Part shown: positions 11,010 to 40,507 of the stretch, piece after piece
Numbering within the stretch: position 1 is the first letter of the stretch
Layout: each line of letters starts with the position of its first letter
NCBI RefSeq assembly: GCF_036127095.1
Contig: NZ_CP108006.1
Location: 6,501,501-6,565,500 of the forward strand
DNA from: Streptomyces sp. NBC_00335
GTDB taxonomy: Bacteria > Actinomycetota > Actinomycetes > Streptomycetales > Streptomycetaceae
Direction of reading: 5' to 3'
Length of the DNA: 64,000 nt
Notes under the pieces: generated by a model
What the model saw: the letters and a program-made list of their open reading frames with translations, nothing else
The model's database searches: none
Told to the model about the DNA's origin: nothing
Translations under genes and position numbers: made by a program

Positions 11010-12527
11010 ATGACGAGCAGCACCGAGACCACCGCCACCACCCCGCAGGTTGCGGTCAACGACATCGGTGACGAGGCCGCGTTCCTCGCCGCGATCGACG
11101 AGACGATCAAGTACTTCAACGACGGCGACATCGTCGACGGCGTCATCGTGAAGGTCGACCGTGACGAGGTTCTCCTCGACATCGGTTACAAGACCGAGGG
11201 CGTCATCCCGAGCCGCGAGCTCTCGATCAAGCACGATGTCGACCCGAACGAGGTCGTCAAGGTCGGCGACGAGATCGAGGCACTTGTTCTCCAGAAGGAG
11301 GACAAGGAAGGCCGTCTCATCCTGTCCAAGAAGCGCGCGCAGTACGAGCGCGCCTGGGGCACGATCGAGAAGATCAAGGAAGAAGACGGCATCGTCACCG
11401 GTACCGTCATCGAGGTCGTCAAGGGTGGTCTCATCCTCGACATCGGCCTCCGCGGCTTCCTGCCGGCCTCCCTCGTCGAGATGCGTCGCGTCCGCGACCT
11501 CCAGCCCTACGTGGGCAAGGAGCTCGAGGCGAAGATCATCGAGCTGGACAAGAACCGCAACAACGTGGTCCTGTCCCGCCGTGCCTGGCTTGAGCAGACC
11601 CAGTCCGAGGTTCGCCAGACGTTCCTCACCACCCTGCAGAAGGGTCAGGTCCGCTCCGGCGTCGTTTCCTCGATCGTCAACTTCGGTGCCTTCGTGGACC
11701 TGGGTGGCGTCGACGGTCTCGTCCACGTCTCCGAGCTGTCCTGGAAGCACATCGACCACCCGTCCGAGGTTGTCGAGGTCGGCCAGGAAGTCACCGTCGA
11801 GGTCCTCGACGTCGACATGGACCGCGAGCGTGTCTCCCTGTCGCTGAAGGCGACGCAGGAAGACCCGTGGCAGCAGTTCGCCCGGACGCACCAGATCGGT
11901 CAGGTCGTCCCGGGTAAGGTCACCAAGCTGGTTCCGTTCGGTGCGTTCGTCCGCGTGGACGAGGGCATCGAGGGCCTGGTCCACATCTCCGAGCTGGCCG
12001 AGCGCCACGTGGAGATCCCGGAGCAGGTCGTCCAGGTCAACGACGAGATCTTCGTCAAGGTCATCGACATCGACCTTGAGCGTCGCCGGATCTCGCTGTC
12101 GCTGAAGCAGGCCAACGAGTCCTTCGGTGCCGACCCGGCGTCGGTCGAGTTCGACCCGACCCTGTACGGCATGGCCGCGTCTTACGACGACCAGGGGAAC
12201 TACATCTACCCCGAGGGCTTCGACCCCGAGACCAACGACTGGCTCGAGGGCTTCGACAAGCAGCGCGAAGCCTGGGAGGGCCAGTACGCCGAGGCGCAGC
12301 AGCGCTTCGAGCAGCACCAGGCTCAGGTCATCAAGAGCCGCGAGGCCGACGAGGCCGCCGCTGCCGAGGGTGCGGCCGCTCCGGCCGCGGGCAGCAGCAG
12401 CAGCGCCGGTGCGGGCATCTCGGGTGGTTCGTACTCCTCCGAGGGTGCGGACGAGACCTCTGGCGCCCTGGCGTCCGACGAGGCCCTCGCCGCGCTCCGC
12501 GAGAAGCTGGCCGGCGGCCAGAGCTGA
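11010..12527 (+). CDS. rpsA: 30S ribosomal protein S1
   Basis: S1 brings mRNA to the 30S subunit. The 505-residue protein carries four S1 RNA-binding repeats at about residues 33-103, 118-185, 204-272 and 289-358. Each shows the VKGxVxxVxxxGxFVxL-type pattern, for example SSIVNFGAFVDLGGVDGLVH and TKLVPFGAFVRVDEGIEGLVH. Four repeats is the normal actinobacterial number, against six in E. coli. The C-terminal 150 residues are acidic, then Ala/Ser/Gly-rich. The ATG at 11010 lacks a well-spaced Shine-Dalgarno sequence. The frame is open further upstream, but that part is the leader. Confidence 0.97.
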   Translation: MTSSTETTATTPQVAVNDIGDEAAFLAAIDETIKYFNDGDIVDGVIVKVDRDEVLLDIGYKTEGVIPSRELSIKHDVDPNEVVKVGDEIEALVLQKEDKEGRLILSKKRAQYERAWGTIEKIKEEDGIVTGTVIEVVKGGLILDIGLRGFLPASLVEMRRVRDLQPYVGKELEAKIIELDKNRNNVVLSRRAWLEQTQSEVRQTFLTTLQKGQVRSGVVSSIVNFGAFVDLGGVDGLVHVSELSWKHIDHPSEVVEVGQEVTVEVLDVDMDRERVSLSLKATQEDPWQQFARTHQIGQVVPGKVTKLVPFGAFVRVDEGIEGLVHISELAERHVEIPEQVVQVNDEIFVKVIDIDLERRRISLSLKQANESFGADPASVEFDPTLYGMAASYDDQGNYIYPEGFDPETNDWLEGFDKQREAWEGQYAEAQQRFEQHQAQVIKSREADEAAAAEGAAAPAAGSSSSAGAGISGGSYSSEGADETSGALASDEALAALREKLAGGQS

Positions 12528-34347: not shown

Positions 34348-36507
34348 ATGCGGCCCGTATCGAAGATCGAACGCACGGTGGCGCCTTTCGAGGTCGTCAG
34401 CTCCTACACGCCCAGCGGCGACCAGCCGGCGGCCATCGCCGAGCTGGAGAAGCGCATCCGTGCAGGTGAGAAGGATGTCGTGCTGCTCGGCGCGACCGGA
34501 ACCGGCAAGTCGGCGACGACCGCCTGGATGATCGAGAAGCTCCAGCGGCCCACCCTGGTGATGGCGCCGAACAAGACGCTCGCCGCCCAGCTGGCGAACG
34601 AGTTCCGCGAGCTCCTGCCGAACAACGCGGTCGAGTACTTCGTCTCGTACTACGACTACTACCAGCCCGAGGCGTACGTACCGCAGTCGGACACCTACAT
34701 CGAGAAGGACTCCTCGATCAACGAGGAGGTGGAGCGGCTGCGCCACTCCGCGACGAACTCCCTCCTCACCCGGCGCGACGTCATCGTCGTCGCCTCGGTG
34801 TCCTGCATCTACGGCCTCGGCACCCCGCAGGAGTACGTGGACCGCATGGTCCCCCTCAAGGTCGGCGAGGAGATGGACCGGGACCAGCTCCTGCGCCGCT
34901 TCGTCGACATCCAGTACACCCGCAACGACGTGGCCTTCACCCGGGGCACCTTCCGGGTGCGCGGCGACACCATCGAGATCTTCCCGGTCTACGAGGAACT
35001 GGCCGTCCGCATCGAGATGTTCGGCGACGAGATCGAGGCCCTGTCCACCCTGCACCCGCTGACCGGCGAGGTGATCAGCGAGGACCGCGAGCTCTACGTC
35101 TTCCCCGCCAGCCACTACGTCGCCGGCCCCGAGCGCATGGAGAAGGCGGTCCGCGGCATCGAGGCCGAGCTCGCCGAGCGCCTCGCCGAGCTGGAGAAGC
35201 AGGGCAAGATGCTGGAGGCGCAGCGCCTGCGCATGCGCACCACCTACGACCTGGAGATGATGCGCCAGATCGGCTCCTGCTCCGGCATCGAGAACTACTC
35301 GCTGCACATGGACGACCGGGAGCGCGGCTCCGCCCCGAACACCCTCATCGACTACTTCCCCGAGGACTTCCTCCTCGTCATCGACGAATCGCACGTCACC
35401 GTGCCCCAGATCGGCGCGATGTACGAGGGCGACGCCTCCCGCAAGCGGACCCTCGTCGACCACGGCTTCCGGCTCCCGTCGGCCCTCGACAACCGGCCGC
35501 TGAAGTGGGAGGAGTTCCAGGAGCGGATCGGCCAGACCGTCTACCTGTCGGCCACCCCGGGCAAGTACGAGCTCTCGCGCGGCGACGGCTTCGTCGAGCA
35601 GATCATCCGCCCGACCGGGCTCATCGACCCGGAGGTCGTGGTCAAGCCCACCGAGGGCCAGATCGACGACCTGGTCCACGAGATCCGCCAGCGGGTGGAG
35701 AAGGACGAGCGGGTCCTGGTCACCACCCTCACCAAGAAGATGGCCGAGGACCTCACCGACTACTTCCTGGAGCTCGGCATCCAGGTCCGCTACCTGCACA
35801 GCGACGTGGACACCCTGCGCCGCATCGAGCTGCTGCGCGAGCTGCGGGCCGGCGAGTACGACGTCCTGGTCGGCATCAACCTGCTGCGCGAGGGCCTGGA
35901 CCTGCCGGAGGTGTCGCTCGTGGCGATCCTCGACGCCGACAAGCAGGGCTTCCTGCGGTCGGGGACCTCGCTGATCCAGACCATCGGCCGCGCGGCGCGC
36001 AACGTCTCCGGCCAGGTCCACATGTACGCGGACAGCATCACCCCGGCGATGGCCCAGGCGATCGACGAGACGAACCGGCGCCGCGAGAAGCAGGTCGCCT
36101 ACAACACGGCCCACGGGATCGACCCGCAGCCGCTGCGCAAGAAGATCAACGACATCGTGGCCACGATCGCCCGCGAGGAGCTCGACACCGAGGAGCTCCT
36201 CGGCACCGGCTACCGGCAGACGAAGGACGGCAAGGCCCTCAAGGCGCCCGTCCCGGCGCTGGGCGGCAAGGCGGCGCAGGCCGCGTCGGGCGGCAAGGCC
36301 GGGGCCAAGGGCGCCAAGGGAGCGAAGGGTCCCGTGGTCGCGACCGACCGTCCCGCCGCCGAACTGGCCTCACTCATCGAGCAGATGACCGAACGGATGC
36401 GGGGCGCGGCCGCGGAGCTGCAGTTCGAGGTCGCGGCCCGGATCCGGGACGAGGTCGGCGAGCTGAAGAAGGAGCTGCGACAGATGAAGGAAGCGGGCCT
36501 CGCCTGA
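34348..36507 (+). CDS. uvrB: Excinuclease ABC subunit B
   Basis: UvrB verifies DNA damage handed over by UvrA and recruits UvrC. The 719-residue protein has Walker A GATGTGKS (residues 48-55), the beta-hairpin [27 protein letters not shown] Walker [24 protein letters not shown] and QTIGRAARN helicase motifs, and a C-terminal UVR domain ([28 protein letters not shown]). A low-complexity Gly/Ala/Lys insert (about residues 635-660) precedes the UVR domain. TACGGT (34335-34340) lies 7 nt before the ATG and no ribosome-binding site exists, so the mRNA is probably leaderless. The long open frame upstream to 33640 is not coding. Confidence 0.97.
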
Positions 36508-36594
36508 CCCGGAGGCGGTCAGTAGGGTTGGCACCAGCCGCAGGTACACGCTGCGCACCCCCATCGGGGGAGGGCTATGGAGAGGGGACAGCGC

Positions 36595-37173
36595 GTGACG
36601 GTCAACATGACCAAGGGTCAGGCCATCAGTCTGCAGAAGGCGGACGGAGGCACGCTGACCGCGGTCCGCATGGGCCTCGGCTGGCAGGCGGCCAAGCGCC
36701 GGGGGCTGTTCGGCTCGCGGACCCGGGAGATCGACCTCGACGCCTCGGCGGTGCTCTTCGCCGACAAGCAGCCCGTGGACGTCGTCTTCTTCCGGCACCT
36801 GCAGAGCGACGACGGCTCGGTCAAGCACACCGGTGACAACCTCGTCGGCGGCGTCGGCCAGGGCGGGGACGACGAGTCGATCCTCGTCGACCTGCAGCGC
36901 GTGCCGGTGCACATCGACCAGATCGTCTTCACGGTGAACTCCTTCACCGGCCAGACGTTCCAGGAGGTGGAGAACGCCTTCTGCCGCATCGTCGACGAGA
37001 CCAACGGCCAGGAGCTGGCCCGCTACACGCTGGACGGTGGCGGCCAGTACACCGCTCAGATCATGGCGAAGGTGTCGCGCGTCGGCGCCGGCTGGCAGAT
37101 GACGGCCCTCGGCAACCCGGCCAACGGCCGTACCTTCCAGGACCTGATGCCGGCGATCCTGCCGCACCTGTAA
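36595..37173 (+). CDS. terD: TerD family stress protein
   Basis: TerD proteins are cytoplasmic calcium-binding proteins of the tellurium/envelope-stress systems. The 192-residue protein starts MTVNMTKGQAISLQKADGGTLTAVRMGLGW and carries LDASAVLFADKQPVDVVFFRHLQSDDGSVKHTGDNLVG and GDDESILVDLQRVPVHIDQIVFTVN, where the acidic residues form the calcium sites. The GTG at 36595 has GGAGAGGGG 9 nt upstream; an ATG at 36577 lies within that ribosome-binding site. It precedes the TerD/FtsK-like fusion and terC. Confidence 0.93.
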   Translation: MTVNMTKGQAISLQKADGGTLTAVRMGLGWQAAKRRGLFGSRTREIDLDASAVLFADKQPVDVVFFRHLQSDDGSVKHTGDNLVGGVGQGGDDESILVDLQRVPVHIDQIVFTVNSFTGQTFQEVENAFCRIVDETNGQELARYTLDGGGQYTAQIMAKVSRVGAGWQMTALGNPANGRTFQDLMPAILPHL

Positions 37174-37300: not shown

Positions 37301-39244
37301 ATGACGGCCGAACTGGTCCGGGGACAGAACCACCCCCTGTCCCGGAGCCGGGTGGAGGTCAGGGTCTCGGCGGGCACACCCGTGCTCGCCCTGGCCCAGC
37401 TCGGCGACGACACGGGCCGGCTCGCCGGCCCCGGTGCGGTCGCCCACCCGGGCGCCCGCACCCTCCCCGGGCTCGAAGTGCCCGGGGAGGCCTCCGGGCA
37501 GCACCGCATAGCGGTCGACCTCGACGCGGTCGCACCGGCCGTCCACCGGGTCGGCTTCGTGCTGGTCCTGCCGCCCGGCGGCCCGCCGCGGTTCGGCGCG
37601 GTCCCCGCCTCCTACGTGTCCGTGGCCGACCCGGAGGGCGCCGAGCTCGCCGGGTACACGCTGACCGGACTGGAGTCGGAGACCGCCGTCGTGGCCCTGG
37701 AGCTGTACCGGCGCCAGGGCGCCTGGAAGGTGCGCGCCGTCGGCCAGGGGTACGCCGCCGGCCTCGGTGCGCTCCTGACCGACGCCGGGCTGCCCGCCCC
37801 GGCCGCGGTCGAACTGGCCGCCGCCGCCCTGGGCACGGCGCCTGCCGGGGACATCACCCTGGCCGTCATGCCCGGCGGCCCGGCCCCGACCGTTCCGCGC
37901 GGGCTCCGGGCCCCGGCCGCGGCCCAGACGCCGGCCCCGGCACCGCAGGACGTGCCGGCCGCCCCCACGCCCCCGCCGATGCCCCCGGAGCCGGGCACGG
38001 ACACCGCGGGCGGTCCGCCCACCATCAGCTACGCCCACCCGCGCCGCCGCACCAGCACCGAGTCGCCCGAGCCAGGGCCGCGCCCCGCCGCACCGCCGCG
38101 GCCGGGCGAGGCGCCCCGCCCCGTCGCCGGGGACGCGAGTGGCTGGTCCATGGAGGAGCGGCTCTACAACCAGGTCTGGGGCATGTTCGAGGACCTGGCC
38201 CGCGCCGTCGCCGCCTACCGCGGCGCCGTCGAGTTCGCCGACTCCCGGATGGACCGCGAGCTCGACGAGGCGCTGTCAGACCCCCGCCACCGGCTCGGCG
38301 GCTCCGGAAACGCCGCCCGGGACACCGCCCGGGCCCGCCGCGAGGAACTGGTCGCGCGGGCGCAGGAAGTCCTCGACCGGGACCTGGTCCAGCTCACCGC
38401 CGAGTCCGAGGTGGTCGAGCCCGCGCTGCCCGCCGCGTACGCGCGCTGGGACAACCCGGTCTGGCAGGCGCACTCCGTGCCCGCCGAGGCGCCCCTCGCC
38501 CTGCGCCTGGGCGACCTCCACCTGCCCGAGCGGCCCGACCTGCGCATCCCCATGCTGGTGCGGGTCCCGCTGGAGCGCGGCCTGTGGATCGACAACGGCC
38601 GCACCGGCTCCGAGGCGGCCATGGCGATGGACACCGACCGGCTGCGCCGGGCCGCCATGGACATGGCCGTCGCGCACGCGGCGCGGATGCTGGCCGCCCA
38701 CCCCGCCGACCGGTTCGCCGTCCACGTCATCGACGCGGCCGGTGCCGGAGCCGCCTCGCTGGCCCCGCTGGTGCGCGCCGGAGTGCTGGCCGGGGCGCCC
38801 GCCGCCGGGGCCGCGGGGGTCACCGAGACCCTGGAGCGGCTGACCCGCCGGGTGGACCTCGTACAGATGGCGGTGCGGGCCGGGGCTCCCGAGGATCTGC
38901 CGGCCGATGTGGACACCTCCGACCAGCTGCTGATCGTGCACGACTTCCCGCACGGGTTCGACGACCGTGCCGTCACCCGTTTGCGCTACCTCGCCGACGA
39001 GGGGCCGGCGGTCGGCGTGCACCTGCTGATGGTTGCTGACCGTGACGAGGCCTCGGCCTACGGGCCGCTGCTGGATCCGCTGTGGCGCTCGCTGATGCGG
39101 CTGTCGCCCGTACCGGACAACCACCTCGCCGACCCCTGGGTCCACCACGCCTGGATCTTCGAGCCGGATCTGCCCCCGCAGGGCAGCAGGGTCCTTGACC
39201 AGGCGCTGGAGCGGGTTGCGGCGGCCCGGGGCGGCGCGCGGTAG
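37301..39244 (+). CDS. TerD-domain protein fused to a degenerate FtsK/HerA-like domain
   Basis: The 647-residue protein has an N-terminal TerD-like beta domain (about residues 1-180; HPLSRSRVEVRVSAG, GFVLVLPPGGPPRFGAV, YVSVADPEGAELAGYTLTGLESETAVVALELYRRQGAWKVRAVGQGY). A Pro/Ala-rich linker (about 195-280) leads to a C-terminal region (about 285-647) resembling the FtsK/HerA ATPase fold. The P-loop position reads WIDNGRTGSEAAMAM and lacks the GKS lysine, while LLIVHDFPHGFD looks like a Walker B strand. I infer a scaffold rather than an active motor. ATG at 37301 has GGGGGAGGGG upstream. It sits between terD and terC. Confidence 0.75.
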   Translation: MTAELVRGQNHPLSRSRVEVRVSAGTPVLALAQLGDDTGRLAGPGAVAHPGARTLPGLEVPGEASGQHRIAVDLDAVAPAVHRVGFVLVLPPGGPPRFGAVPASYVSVADPEGAELAGYTLTGLESETAVVALELYRRQGAWKVRAVGQGYAAGLGALLTDAGLPAPAAVELAAAALGTAPAGDITLAVMPGGPAPTVPRGLRAPAAAQTPAPAPQDVPAAPTPPPMPPEPGTDTAGGPPTISYAHPRRRTSTESPEPGPRPAAPPRPGEAPRPVAGDASGWSMEERLYNQVWGMFEDLARAVAAYRGAVEFADSRMDRELDEALSDPRHRLGGSGNAARDTARARREELVARAQEVLDRDLVQLTAESEVVEPALPAAYARWDNPVWQAHSVPAEAPLALRLGDLHLPERPDLRIPMLVRVPLERGLWIDNGRTGSEAAMAMDTDRLRRAAMDMAVAHAARMLAAHPADRFAVHVIDAAGAGAASLAPLVRAGVLAGAPAAGAAGVTETLERLTRRVDLVQMAVRAGAPEDLPADVDTSDQLLIVHDFPHGFDDRAVTRLRYLADEGPAVGVHLLMVADRDEASAYGPLLDPLWRSLMRLSPVPDNHLADPWVHHAWIFEPDLPPQGSRVLDQALERVAAARGGAR

Positions 39245-39344
39245 CGCCTGCCGGGCGGTCCGCCGCCCGGCCTCGATGACCGGCCGCTGACCAGTTCTTG
39301 GGTTCCCCTTTACCTAATGTGCCCACGGCGGGTACCCTGGTGAA

Positions 39345-39463
39345 CGCGGAGGGGAGTATTCCTGCTTTCCTGCTACGGCGTGCCCGTCAATACGGACTGC
39401 AATCGGTCCCGGGGCGCCGGCCCGTGGCCTCCTGGCCGTCCGGGTGGAAGAGACCTCCGGCAG
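39345..39463 (+). promoter_or_regulatory. yybP-ykoY riboswitch (manganese-sensing) upstream of terC
   Basis: The RNA begins GCGGAGGGGAGTATT (39346-39360), matching the conserved GGGGAGUA loop of the yybP-ykoY class, and ends GGAAGAGACCTCCGG (39446-39460), matching the conserved GAGACCU strand. CGGAGG (39347-39352) pairs with CCTCCG (39454-39459) to form P1. Internal hairpins GGACTG/CGGTCC (39394-39409) and GGCC/GGCC follow. This class senses Mn2+ and very often controls TerC/MntP-type membrane proteins, as here. The 3-prime P1 strand CCTCCGGCAG (39454-39463) is also perfectly complementary to CTGCCGGAGG (39492-39501), the terC ribosome-binding region. A weak promoter candidate, TAATGT at 39315-39320, lies upstream. 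Confidence 0.8.
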
Positions 39464-39511
39464 CGATGACGCTGACCAAGTGCTGAGCCATCTGCCGGAG
39501 GCGTGTTTATA

Positions 39512-40507
39512 GTGGATGTTTCGTTGACCCTCTGGGTGCTGACCATTCTCGGTCTGGGCATCCTCATCGGCGCCGATTTCTTCATCGGCCGCAAGCCGCA
39601 CGACGTCTCCATGAAGGAGGCGGGCATCTGGACGGTCGTCTGGATCGTCCTCGCGGTGCTCTTCGGACTCGGCCTGCTGGTGTTCGGCCACGGCCAGGCC
39701 TCGCAGGAGTTCTTCGCCGGTTTCATCACCGAGAAGTCCCTGAGCGTGGACAACCTCTTCGTCTTCGTCCTGATCATGGCGAAGTTCGCGGTCCCCTCAC
39801 AGCTCCAGCAGCGCGTGCTGCTGATCGGCGTGCTGATCGCCCTGGTGCTGCGCGCCATCTTCATCGCCGCCGGCGCCGCGATCATCACCAACTTCTCGTG
39901 GGTCTTCTACATCTTCGGCGCGTTCCTCATCTACACCGCGTGGAAGCTGATCCAGGAAGCCCGCAAGGACGAGGAGGAAGAGGAGTTCGAGGAGAACCGC
40001 CTCCTGAAGTCCATCGAGAAGAAGTTCGGCGTCGCCGACCGCTACCACGGCACCAAGCTCTTCATCCAGAGCAACGGCAAGCGCGTCCTGACCCCGCTGA
40101 TGGTCGTCATGCTCGCCATCGGCACCACCGACGTGCTGTTCGCCCTGGACTCGATCCCCGCGATCTTCGGCCTCACCCAGGACCCGTACATCGTCTTCAC
40201 CGCCAACGCCTTCGCGCTGATGGGTCTGCGCCAGCTGTACTTCCTCATCGGCGGCCTGCTCAAGAAGCTGGTCCACCTCAGCTACGGCCTCTCCGTCATC
40301 CTCGGCTTCATCGGCATCAAGCTCGTGCTGCACGCCCTGCACGAGTCGGGCCTGCACGTCCCGCAGATCTCCATCCCGGTCTCCCTGGGCGTCATCTGCG
40401 GTGTCCTGGTGATCACCACGATCACCAGCCTGATCGCCTCGAAGAAGCAGGCCGAGGCCGAGGCCGCCGAGGCCGCCGGGGCCGGCCCGGAGCGCATCGA
40501 CGCCTGA
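39512..40507 (+). CDS. terC: TerC/Alx family membrane protein, probable manganese exporter
   Basis: The 331-residue protein has about nine hydrophobic segments. It holds the acidic intramembrane motifs of the family, EKSLSVDNLFVFVLI (about residues 77-91) and GTTDVLFALDSIPAIFGLTQD (about 207-227). A charged cytoplasmic loop (ARKDEEEEEFEENRLLKSIEKKFGV) separates the halves. TerC/Alx proteins are linked to Mn2+ export and to metalation of secreted proteins, and to tellurite resistance in ter clusters. I choose the GTG at 39512 because GGAGG lies 10 nt upstream; the frame opens at a GTG at 39503, too close to that site. The manganese riboswitch in the leader supports the Mn role. Confidence 0.93.
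   Translation: MDVSLTLWVLTILGLGILIGADFFIGRKPHDVSMKEAGIWTVVWIVLAVLFGLGLLVFGHGQASQEFFAGFITEKSLSVDNLFVFVLIMAKFAVPSQLQQRVLLIGVLIALVLRAIFIAAGAAIITNFSWVFYIFGAFLIYTAWKLIQEARKDEEEEEFEENRLLKSIEKKFGVADRYHGTKLFIQSNGKRVLTPLMVVMLAIGTTDVLFALDSIPAIFGLTQDPYIVFTANAFALMGLRQLYFLIGGLLKKLVHLSYGLSVILGFIGIKLVLHALHESGLHVPQISIPVSLGVICGVLVITTITSLIASKKQAEAEAAEAAGAGPERIDA

Follow-up and report, generated by a model that had tools for sequence, protein, structure and literature searches.

We investigated the leader of the terC gene in a 64-kb stretch of the genome of Streptomyces sp. NBC_00335 (hereafter, the window; coordinates are positions within it, L numbers denote fetched loci, and G000 is the strain's own genome). 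This leader is very probably a Mn2+-responsive riboswitch of the yybP-ykoY class that turns on terC translation. Sequence comparisons show homology of its aptamer to a proven class member, a covarying fold, two mutually exclusive helices, and a downstream gene of the TerC/Alx family, from which we infer that Mn2+ is the ligand, which way the switch works, that it controls translation, and what the protein does. The initial annotation had assigned the leader to this class, and the assignment is supported by cross-model homology to the Escherichia coli alx leader, covariation, and gene context. The leader is an unannotated addition to an already known riboswitch class, and its interest lies in the systematic absence of such leaders from annotation.

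Aptamer homology and fold

The leader contains the two L1 words of the class, GGGGAGTA (39351-39358) and GAGACCT (39450-39456), separated by 91 bases, and CGGAGG (39347-39352) is complementary to CCTCCG (39454-39459), forming helix P1; on inspection of the sequence, both words and the P1 complement were present where they had first been annotated. The two L1 words alone are weak evidence: the pattern GGGGAGTAN{75,105}GAGACC was present in 100 of 101 Streptomycetaceae genomes, with many of the matches listed appearing coding-like by eye, and the pattern read backwards gave mostly 0-1 listed matches per genome. The pattern served as a source of leads, which were divided into three sequence types by eye and then by regular expression, namely B (terC type, 68 rows), A (34 rows), and C (9 rows); in some cases, an A row and a B row represent one site shifted by a base.

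We built two covariance models from these leads. The first, R1, used 22 aligned A/C leaders with a structure from RNAalifold; 20 of its training leaders precede GDT1 genes, two precede Na_Ca_ex genes, and none precedes terC (tblastn). Over the 64-kb window, R1 matched 39347-39459 with 35 bits (E = 5.9e-6; runner-up, 18.3 bits, E = 0.041), and since R1 was built without terC leaders, this clear match lifts the site above chance. R1 also matched 23 of 23 terC-leader loci in a set of 30 (E = 7e-8 to 4.6e-4), and the remaining seven, decoys fetched by the word pattern only, either gave E values of at least 1.3 or were unmatched. The second model, R2, was built from 50 aligned B rows, including the window, with the structure proposed here; its score of 96.1 bits on the window leader is therefore that of a training sequence. 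In a set of 43 sources, R2 matched all 18 sister leaders at E ≤ 9.2e-4, as well as the window, which is a training sequence; of the 24 negatives, comprising 22 regions upstream of terC that lack the words and two noise loci, none fell below E = 0.1, the best being L214 at 0.21. Over 501 bases around the alx leader, R1 gave 36.0 bits (E = 2.7e-8) at L164:3376-3499, and R2, whose training set does not include alx, gave 44.6 bits (E = 2e-9) at the same place. Hence, homology to a proven member rests on the matches of both models to the alx leader and of R1 to the window. A new, Streptomyces-specific RNA class was also considered and was dropped once alx matched both models. Elsewhere in the window, both models gave a weak match at 11711-11799 on the minus strand (18.3 and 20.3 bits, E = 0.04-0.07) that is probably due to chance.

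The aptamer spans 39347-39459 on the plus strand, as do all elements below, and shows the features of the class: the L1 words GGGGAGUA and GAGACC closed by P1, and P3.1 leading through an asymmetric L3 with an invariable adenosine into P3.2. The P1 5' strand CGGAGG (39347-39352) is followed by the L1 5' side GGAGTA (39353-39358), which is invariant in the 50 aligned terC leaders and in which A39355 is likely the equivalent of the cross-docking A10 (role of A10: PMC6754395). Then come the P1.2 5' strand TTCC (39359-39362; paired with GGAA, 39446-39449), the P3.1 5' strand (39376-39386, with G39382 bulged; paired with 39410-39419), L3 TCAATAC (39387-39393), the P3.2 hairpin GGACTG/CGGTCC (39394-39409; strands 39394-39399 and 39404-39409), and the P4 hairpin (39420-39445; outer stem 39420-39424/39441-39445). 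The alignments place the P1.2 3' strand and the L1 3' side GAGA (39450-39453) together at 39446-39453, directly before the P1 3' strand. No P2 was present in the structures used for the terC and sister leaders or in the alx alignment, its position being occupied by 4-14 bases in terC leaders and 4-8 in the aligned GDT1-type leaders; P2 may not define the class, because a three-way form has been reported for the Streptococcus pneumoniae member (PMC9495176). Self-complementary stretches at 39350-39371 (around L1) and 39384-39395 (CCGTCAATACGG, around L3) could form competing hairpins, and similar words recur in relatives.

Compensatory changes were found in this fold. The 50 terC leaders have 94.1% of their cells paired, with two-sided changes at 13 of 29 pairs, and none of 500 shuffles scored as high; in the 22 A/C leaders, the corresponding values were 98.6% and 8 of 20. 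We then fitted 30 chosen diverse sequences, including alx, to R2 (alignment A3; the window and L137 were in R2 training, alx was not). In A3, 94.3% of cells pair and two-sided changes occur at 24 of 29 pairs, with a covariation score of 0.677 against 0.223 when shuffled and at most 0.111 when slid, and 0 of 500 shuffles matched on any measure. RNAalifold on A3 returned the same helices (28 pairs, 22 with double changes). Two-sided changes affect nine of ten pairs in P3.1, all five stem pairs in P4, and three pairs in P1; covariation also supports P3.2, for which four of six pairs were counted, and P1.2 occurs as UUCC/GGAA, CUCC/GGAG, GUCC/GGAC, or GCC/GGC. The L3 dinucleotide CA is the same in all 30 rows, alx included. 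In the crystal structures, the Mn2+-contacting adenosine is reported as A41 in UCA41AU43UC of Lactococcus lactis and A48 in ACA48U49ACU of Xanthomonas oryzae (PMC6754395); the L3 of terC leaders is of the former type and that of GDT1 leaders of the latter (ACATACT and variants). Because of this match to the L. lactis form, A39389 is, on sequence grounds, a candidate for the Mn2+-coordinating adenosine, corresponding to A41.

The P1 strand and the ribosome site

The P1 3' strand is the beginning of a longer switching strand, CCTCCGGCAG (39454-39463), which is complementary over all ten bases to the Shine-Dalgarno (SD) stretch CTGCCGGAGG (39492-39501). The latter ends 10 bases 5' of the probable GTG start of terC (39512-40507); an alternative in-frame GTG at 39503 sits one base past the SD stretch. 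As CCTCCG belongs to both helices, P1 and SD sequestration are mutually exclusive, and Mn-induced translation is predicted. The initial annotation had named the class and the gene rightly but had not described this expression platform: its span, 39345-39463, includes the aptamer and the anti-SD strand but omits the partner at 39492-39501.

We examined this relationship in 166 terC upstream regions, of which 144 (140 distinct) contained the aptamer by regular expression and 22 did not. In all 144 leaders with the aptamer, the strand that begins with the P1 3' strand can pair over 8-10 contiguous bases with a stretch that ends in the SD, against 129 of 7200 trials reaching 8 bp with Markov-shuffled downstream sequence. 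Both helices also change together: CGAAGG/CCTTCG occurs with the SD GCCGAAGG in L137, L139, and L305, GGAAGG/CCTTCC with GTGGAAGG in L270, CCTCCAGC with GCTGGAGG in L300, and CCTCCGGT with ACCGGAGG in L185. From the comparison that gave L185, L270, L300, and L305, individual rows are cited and pooled counts set aside, as it misplaced L006, L012, L014, L024, and L165 and assigned a wrong P1 to L301. The exchange of CGGAGG/CCTCCG/CCGGAGG for CGAAGG/CCTTCG/CCGAAGG makes the shared switching strand visible from sequence alone. The P1 5' strand of terC leaders would act as a mimic of the SD sequence, so that a single strand would choose between the aptamer and the ribosome site. In 36 leaders outside Streptomycetaceae, P1 pairs in 194 of 216 cells compared with at most 186 in 1000 reshuffles, and at least six contiguous anti-SD pairs occur in 31 of 36 (not in L303, L306, L307, L311, and L317), where the SD partner was picked for complementarity and the shuffle control is accordingly lenient. 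This set excludes L289, L312, and L318; L308 was unmatched, and for L290, L301, and L314 the register of P1 is open to doubt.

Metal-free folding gave anti-SD pairing above 0.5 in 139 of 144 leaders. As this pairing dominates without metal, the metal-free RNA is predicted to be OFF. In the absence of Mn2+, CCTCCGGCAG would pair with CTGCCGGAGG and hide the SD; with Mn2+, L1 and L3 would dock around the metal and hold P1 closed, whereby the switching strand would be occupied and the ribosome binding site freed from it. The Alx-type TerC product would then export Mn2+ or hand it to secreted enzymes.

The GDT1-type leaders seem to be arranged differently. In 27 of 30 typed R1 loci, the stretch that best complements the P1 3' strand ends 23-80 bases 5' of the estimated coding start, whereas in L267, L268, and L270 it ends 5-6 bases before it; many such stretches measure only 6-7 bases, a length near chance. 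Since the competing helix lies mostly upstream of the ribosome site, this suggests transcription control in most GDT1-type leaders. At the end of one GDT1-type leader, L103, a run of seven T follows a GC-rich stem, which is the form expected of a terminator.

Counter-evidence and the limits of RF00080

Several results weigh against a Mn2+ switch at this leader. The Rfam family of the class, RF00080, has been the initial annotation's own check, and it was negative: Rfam at the gathering cut-off reported nothing anywhere in the 64-kb window, and at E ≤ 10 on 39230-39560 it gave four weak unrelated matches and no RF00080. The window leader misses the RF00080 gathering score of 45 bits (release 15), and the locus is not filed as an RF00080 match. 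Over the strain's own genome (9.0 Mb, two contigs), RF00080 gave one noise match elsewhere (E = 3.6), and it was above the cut-off in 0 of 61 Streptomycetaceae genomes (12 at E ≤ 1) and 0 of 148 sampled Actinomycetia genomes (9 at E ≤ 0.01), the latter two scans having run with stricter filters by which weak matches were lost. R1 over the own genome did not list the terC leader, which R2 did. With respect to the fold, P1 alone hardly covaries in the 50 terC leaders (one pair with a two-sided change, equalled by 43 of 500 shuffles), the first P1.2 pair is a C-A mismatch in 28 of these 50, though not in the window's, and in L220 and L292 the switching strand alone is altered, both helices being kept via G-U pairs as an intermediate. 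In metal-free folding, P1 exceeded 0.5 in 0 of 144 full leaders and, before the SD is made, in 48 of 144, with only 0.05 in the window, where P1 is weak even at that stage owing to possible self-folding of the L1 strand. A forced ON fold of the window leader lies at −71.4 kcal/mol, 6.9 higher than the free fold (−78.3), and the probability that the SD bases GGAGG are unpaired is 0.23 in the former and 0.001 in the latter, the low value in the ON fold being due to other bases that pair with GGAGG. Finally, two aptamer-less terC leaders of the genus (L086 and L094) retain an anti-SD hairpin by eye.

The RF00080 negative is, however, uninformative at this leader, because the same model with the same tool also misses the E. 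coli alx leader, which was unlisted both at the gathering cut-off and at E ≤ 10; we thus judged the proposed refutation by a missing above-threshold match to be invalid and did not treat an RF00080 match as defining the class. In its printed alignments, the RF00080 model leaves the GGGGAGUA strand unpaired and stops before the GAGACC half, and it is therefore blind to the P1 evidence. Below threshold, full-length RF00080 matches with the same words were obtained at L142, L143, and L159 (GDT1), L156 (Na_Ca_ex), and L155 (downstream gene untyped by five protein queries) with 23.7-32.4 bits, the best match to a sister leader reaching 32.4 bits (E = 1e-5). Together with the commonness of the two-word pattern genome-wide, the RF00080 negative would be what remains for a chance origin of two short words in a GC-rich intergenic stretch. 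That explanation is practically negligible given the R1 match obtained without terC training data, the covariation, and the recurrence of the leader in the genus, where the aptamer words stand upstream of the best-matching TerC gene in 53 of 61 genomes.

The folding results fit a ligand-dependent switch, in which the energy model by itself predicts neither P1 closure nor full SD release; to form P1, either the docked fold with bound metal or transcription kinetics would be required. They could also be read as an SD hairpin acting on its own (a thermometer, a protein site, or a fixed attenuator), with the aptamer as a relic. The stability of the anti-SD hairpin without metal in nearly all leaders and its retention in two of the eight aptamer-less terC leaders of the genus (L077, L078, L086, L087, L088, L094, L095, and L097, the primary terC in each case) speak for such a hairpin, but compensatory changes keep the aptamer helices across families, and the aptamer-less L077, L078, L095, and L097 show no CCTCCGG partner strand upstream of terC. 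We consider a hairpin without a working aptamer very unlikely.

Second terC copies were also fetched, and 0 of 9 have the aptamer words. Those in L085, L089, L091, L092, L093, and L098 are 77-79% identical and lack the aptamer, and in some of them, most clearly in L091, a GGGTGGAAGAGACC-like piece resembling a decayed 3' half persists.

Downstream genes, metal role, and known systems

We next considered what the riboswitch-like leaders precede. In 148 sampled Actinomycetia genomes at E ≤ 0.01, R1 matched in 69, R2 in 85, either model in 99, and both in 55. The top 30 R1 matches in the class precede GDT1 (28), an Na_Ca_ex protein (1), and TerC (1), as typed by tblastn with five query proteins whose identities were confirmed by Pfam (GDT1, PF01169; Na_Ca_ex, PF01699; TerC, PF03741). 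Among 30 loci from the top 31 of R2, TerC lies downstream in 29 (in L302 at 28% identity), the exception being L289, and 19 of 20 further places picked lower in the R2 list are TerC-like, the exception being L318. In total, 78 of 80 typed downstream genes are TerC-, GDT1-, or Na/Ca-exchanger-like. The own genome contains a second leader of GDT1 type far from terC (L245, G000:C1:363141-363245, 85.4 bits). At L289:1501-1595, a terC-type aptamer (78.2 bits, E = 1.2e-12) is followed by an uncharacterised 283-residue protein without a Pfam or NCBIfam match, and at L318 (G235:C1:725850-727500), one precedes a PGPGW transmembrane protein (PF09656), possibly a further Mn-controlled gene. In L312, two R2 matches lie on opposite strands about 140 bases apart (G211:C33:34827-34935 and 35075-35173), possibly two back-to-back switches, and one side runs into a TerC gene.

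The window's terC product matches PF03741 (5e-53) and passes NCBIfam TIGR03718 'R_switched_Alx' (380 bits; cut-off 246.4), scores below the cut-offs of the YkoY and YjbE subfamilies, and is identical to E. coli Alx at 120 of 299 positions (40%), which bears out the TerC/Alx gene annotated downstream. The name 'R_switched_Alx', read as a name only, suggests that curators already link this protein subfamily to a riboswitch. The closest named record was from Streptomyces sp. AP-93 (98% protein identity), in a comparison from which the own genome's records may be left out. Elsewhere, TerC proteins have been linked to Mn export or exoenzyme metalation (PMC13274385, PMC10550928, PMC12096827), and UPF0016 (GDT1) proteins have been named as Mn exporters (PMC13274385).

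The initial annotation had proposed manganese homeostasis rather than tellurite resistance. The first part stands by inference from TIGR03718, the 40% identity to Alx, and the GDT1 sister leaders, whereas the exclusion of tellurite resistance is not established. The tellurite reading survives the family assignment because a Klebsiella terC has been linked to tellurite and zinc resistance (PMC12054061) and because the terC studied here lies beside TerD-domain genes; nevertheless, manganese is favoured over a tellurite-only reading by the leader, by membership in the Alx subfamily, and by the sister leaders. Two TerD-domain genes (36577-37173 and 37301-39244) lie upstream of terC on the same strand, and a homologue of the second TerD-domain protein is found upstream of terC in 29 of 30 loci (the window's own included; not in L026). 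These genes have thus stayed together even though terC has a promoter-like site of its own.

The leader could alternatively descend from yybP-ykoY and answer mainly to another cue, namely alkaline pH, Ca2+, or another transition metal. In the published accounts, alx responds to alkaline pH besides Mn (PMC9603457) and a Streptococcus mgtA relative binds Ca2+ (PMC9495176); in addition, the base 3' of the candidate metal-binding adenosine varies among terC leaders (A, G, T, or C), and Na/Ca-exchanger genes have sister leaders. Against these points stand the invariant CA of L3, the sister leaders of genes for GDT1 proteins, which are the named Mn exporters, and the assignment of TerC to the Alx subfamily. 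On balance, we regard another principal cue as unlikely and Mn2+ as the probable ligand.

The probable promoter consists of CTTTACC (39308-39314) and TACCCT (39333-39338) on the plus strand, with 19 bases between TTTAC and TAnnnT. Of 129 leaders whose upstream sequence was long enough, 128 have the arrangement TTTAC-N14..22-TAnnnT, with a spacing of 19 in 110, 18 in 16, and 14 in two. From this site (39308-39338), the RNA would begin immediately 5' of P1. Between the anti-SD strand and the SD lies a six-codon ATG...TGA frame (39466-39486), which is present in close relatives and absent from many other leaders; it was dropped as a leader peptide, many relatives carrying GACGACG in place of the ATG.

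Taken together, we lean towards the view that Actinomycetia harbor a large, unannotated Mn2+ riboswitch branch that would be the main control of Mn export through terC- and GDT1-type leaders, the P1 5' strand mimicking the SD in the former and the competing helix mostly lying upstream, for transcription control, in the latter, with a few members preceding genes that have no Mn link so far (L289 and L318). If so, the Mn-export response of antibiotic-producing soil bacteria is invisible to Rfam-based annotation, and actinobacterial TerC and GDT1 proteins gain a testable role. The alignments obtained here could extend RF00080, which also misses alx. We found no title on such a Streptomyces Mn switch in the open literature; subscription journals were mostly uncovered, and a mention elsewhere is possible. 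Mn2+ riboswitches are named among the RNAs found in actinobacteria by earlier searches (PMC8164766).

Among known systems, the alx leader of E. coli has been described as a riboswitch of the yybP-ykoY class, with Mn activating its reporter (PMC9603457). It shares with the window leader the L1 words, an L3 of the form UCAUUACG, a P1/P1.2/P3/P4 layout in which the alignment shows no P2 hairpin, and the protein family downstream, but differs in its longer P4 region, its GC content (0.47; window, 0.69), and its P1 (CAAAGG/CCUU-G; window, CGGAGG/CCUCCG). This comparison covers the aptamer and the protein family. An actinobacterial counterpart is the cg2157 (terC) leader of Corynebacterium glutamicum, which is tabled as RF00080 with an observed transcript (PMC3890552); this table rests on an earlier Rfam, and C. 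glutamicum was not among the control genomes matching RF00080 in our class scan. The S. pneumoniae mgtA riboswitch, compared by description, has another kind of target gene than terC. The crystal-structure aptamers of L. lactis and X. oryzae (PMC6754395) share the L1/L3 elements and the invariable L3 adenosine with the leaders described here, the L3 of the terC type resembling L. lactis UCAAUUC and that of the GDT1 type X. oryzae ACAUACU, but they are described as four-way junctions, where the terC and the aligned GDT1-type leaders have the short stretches given above at the position of P2.
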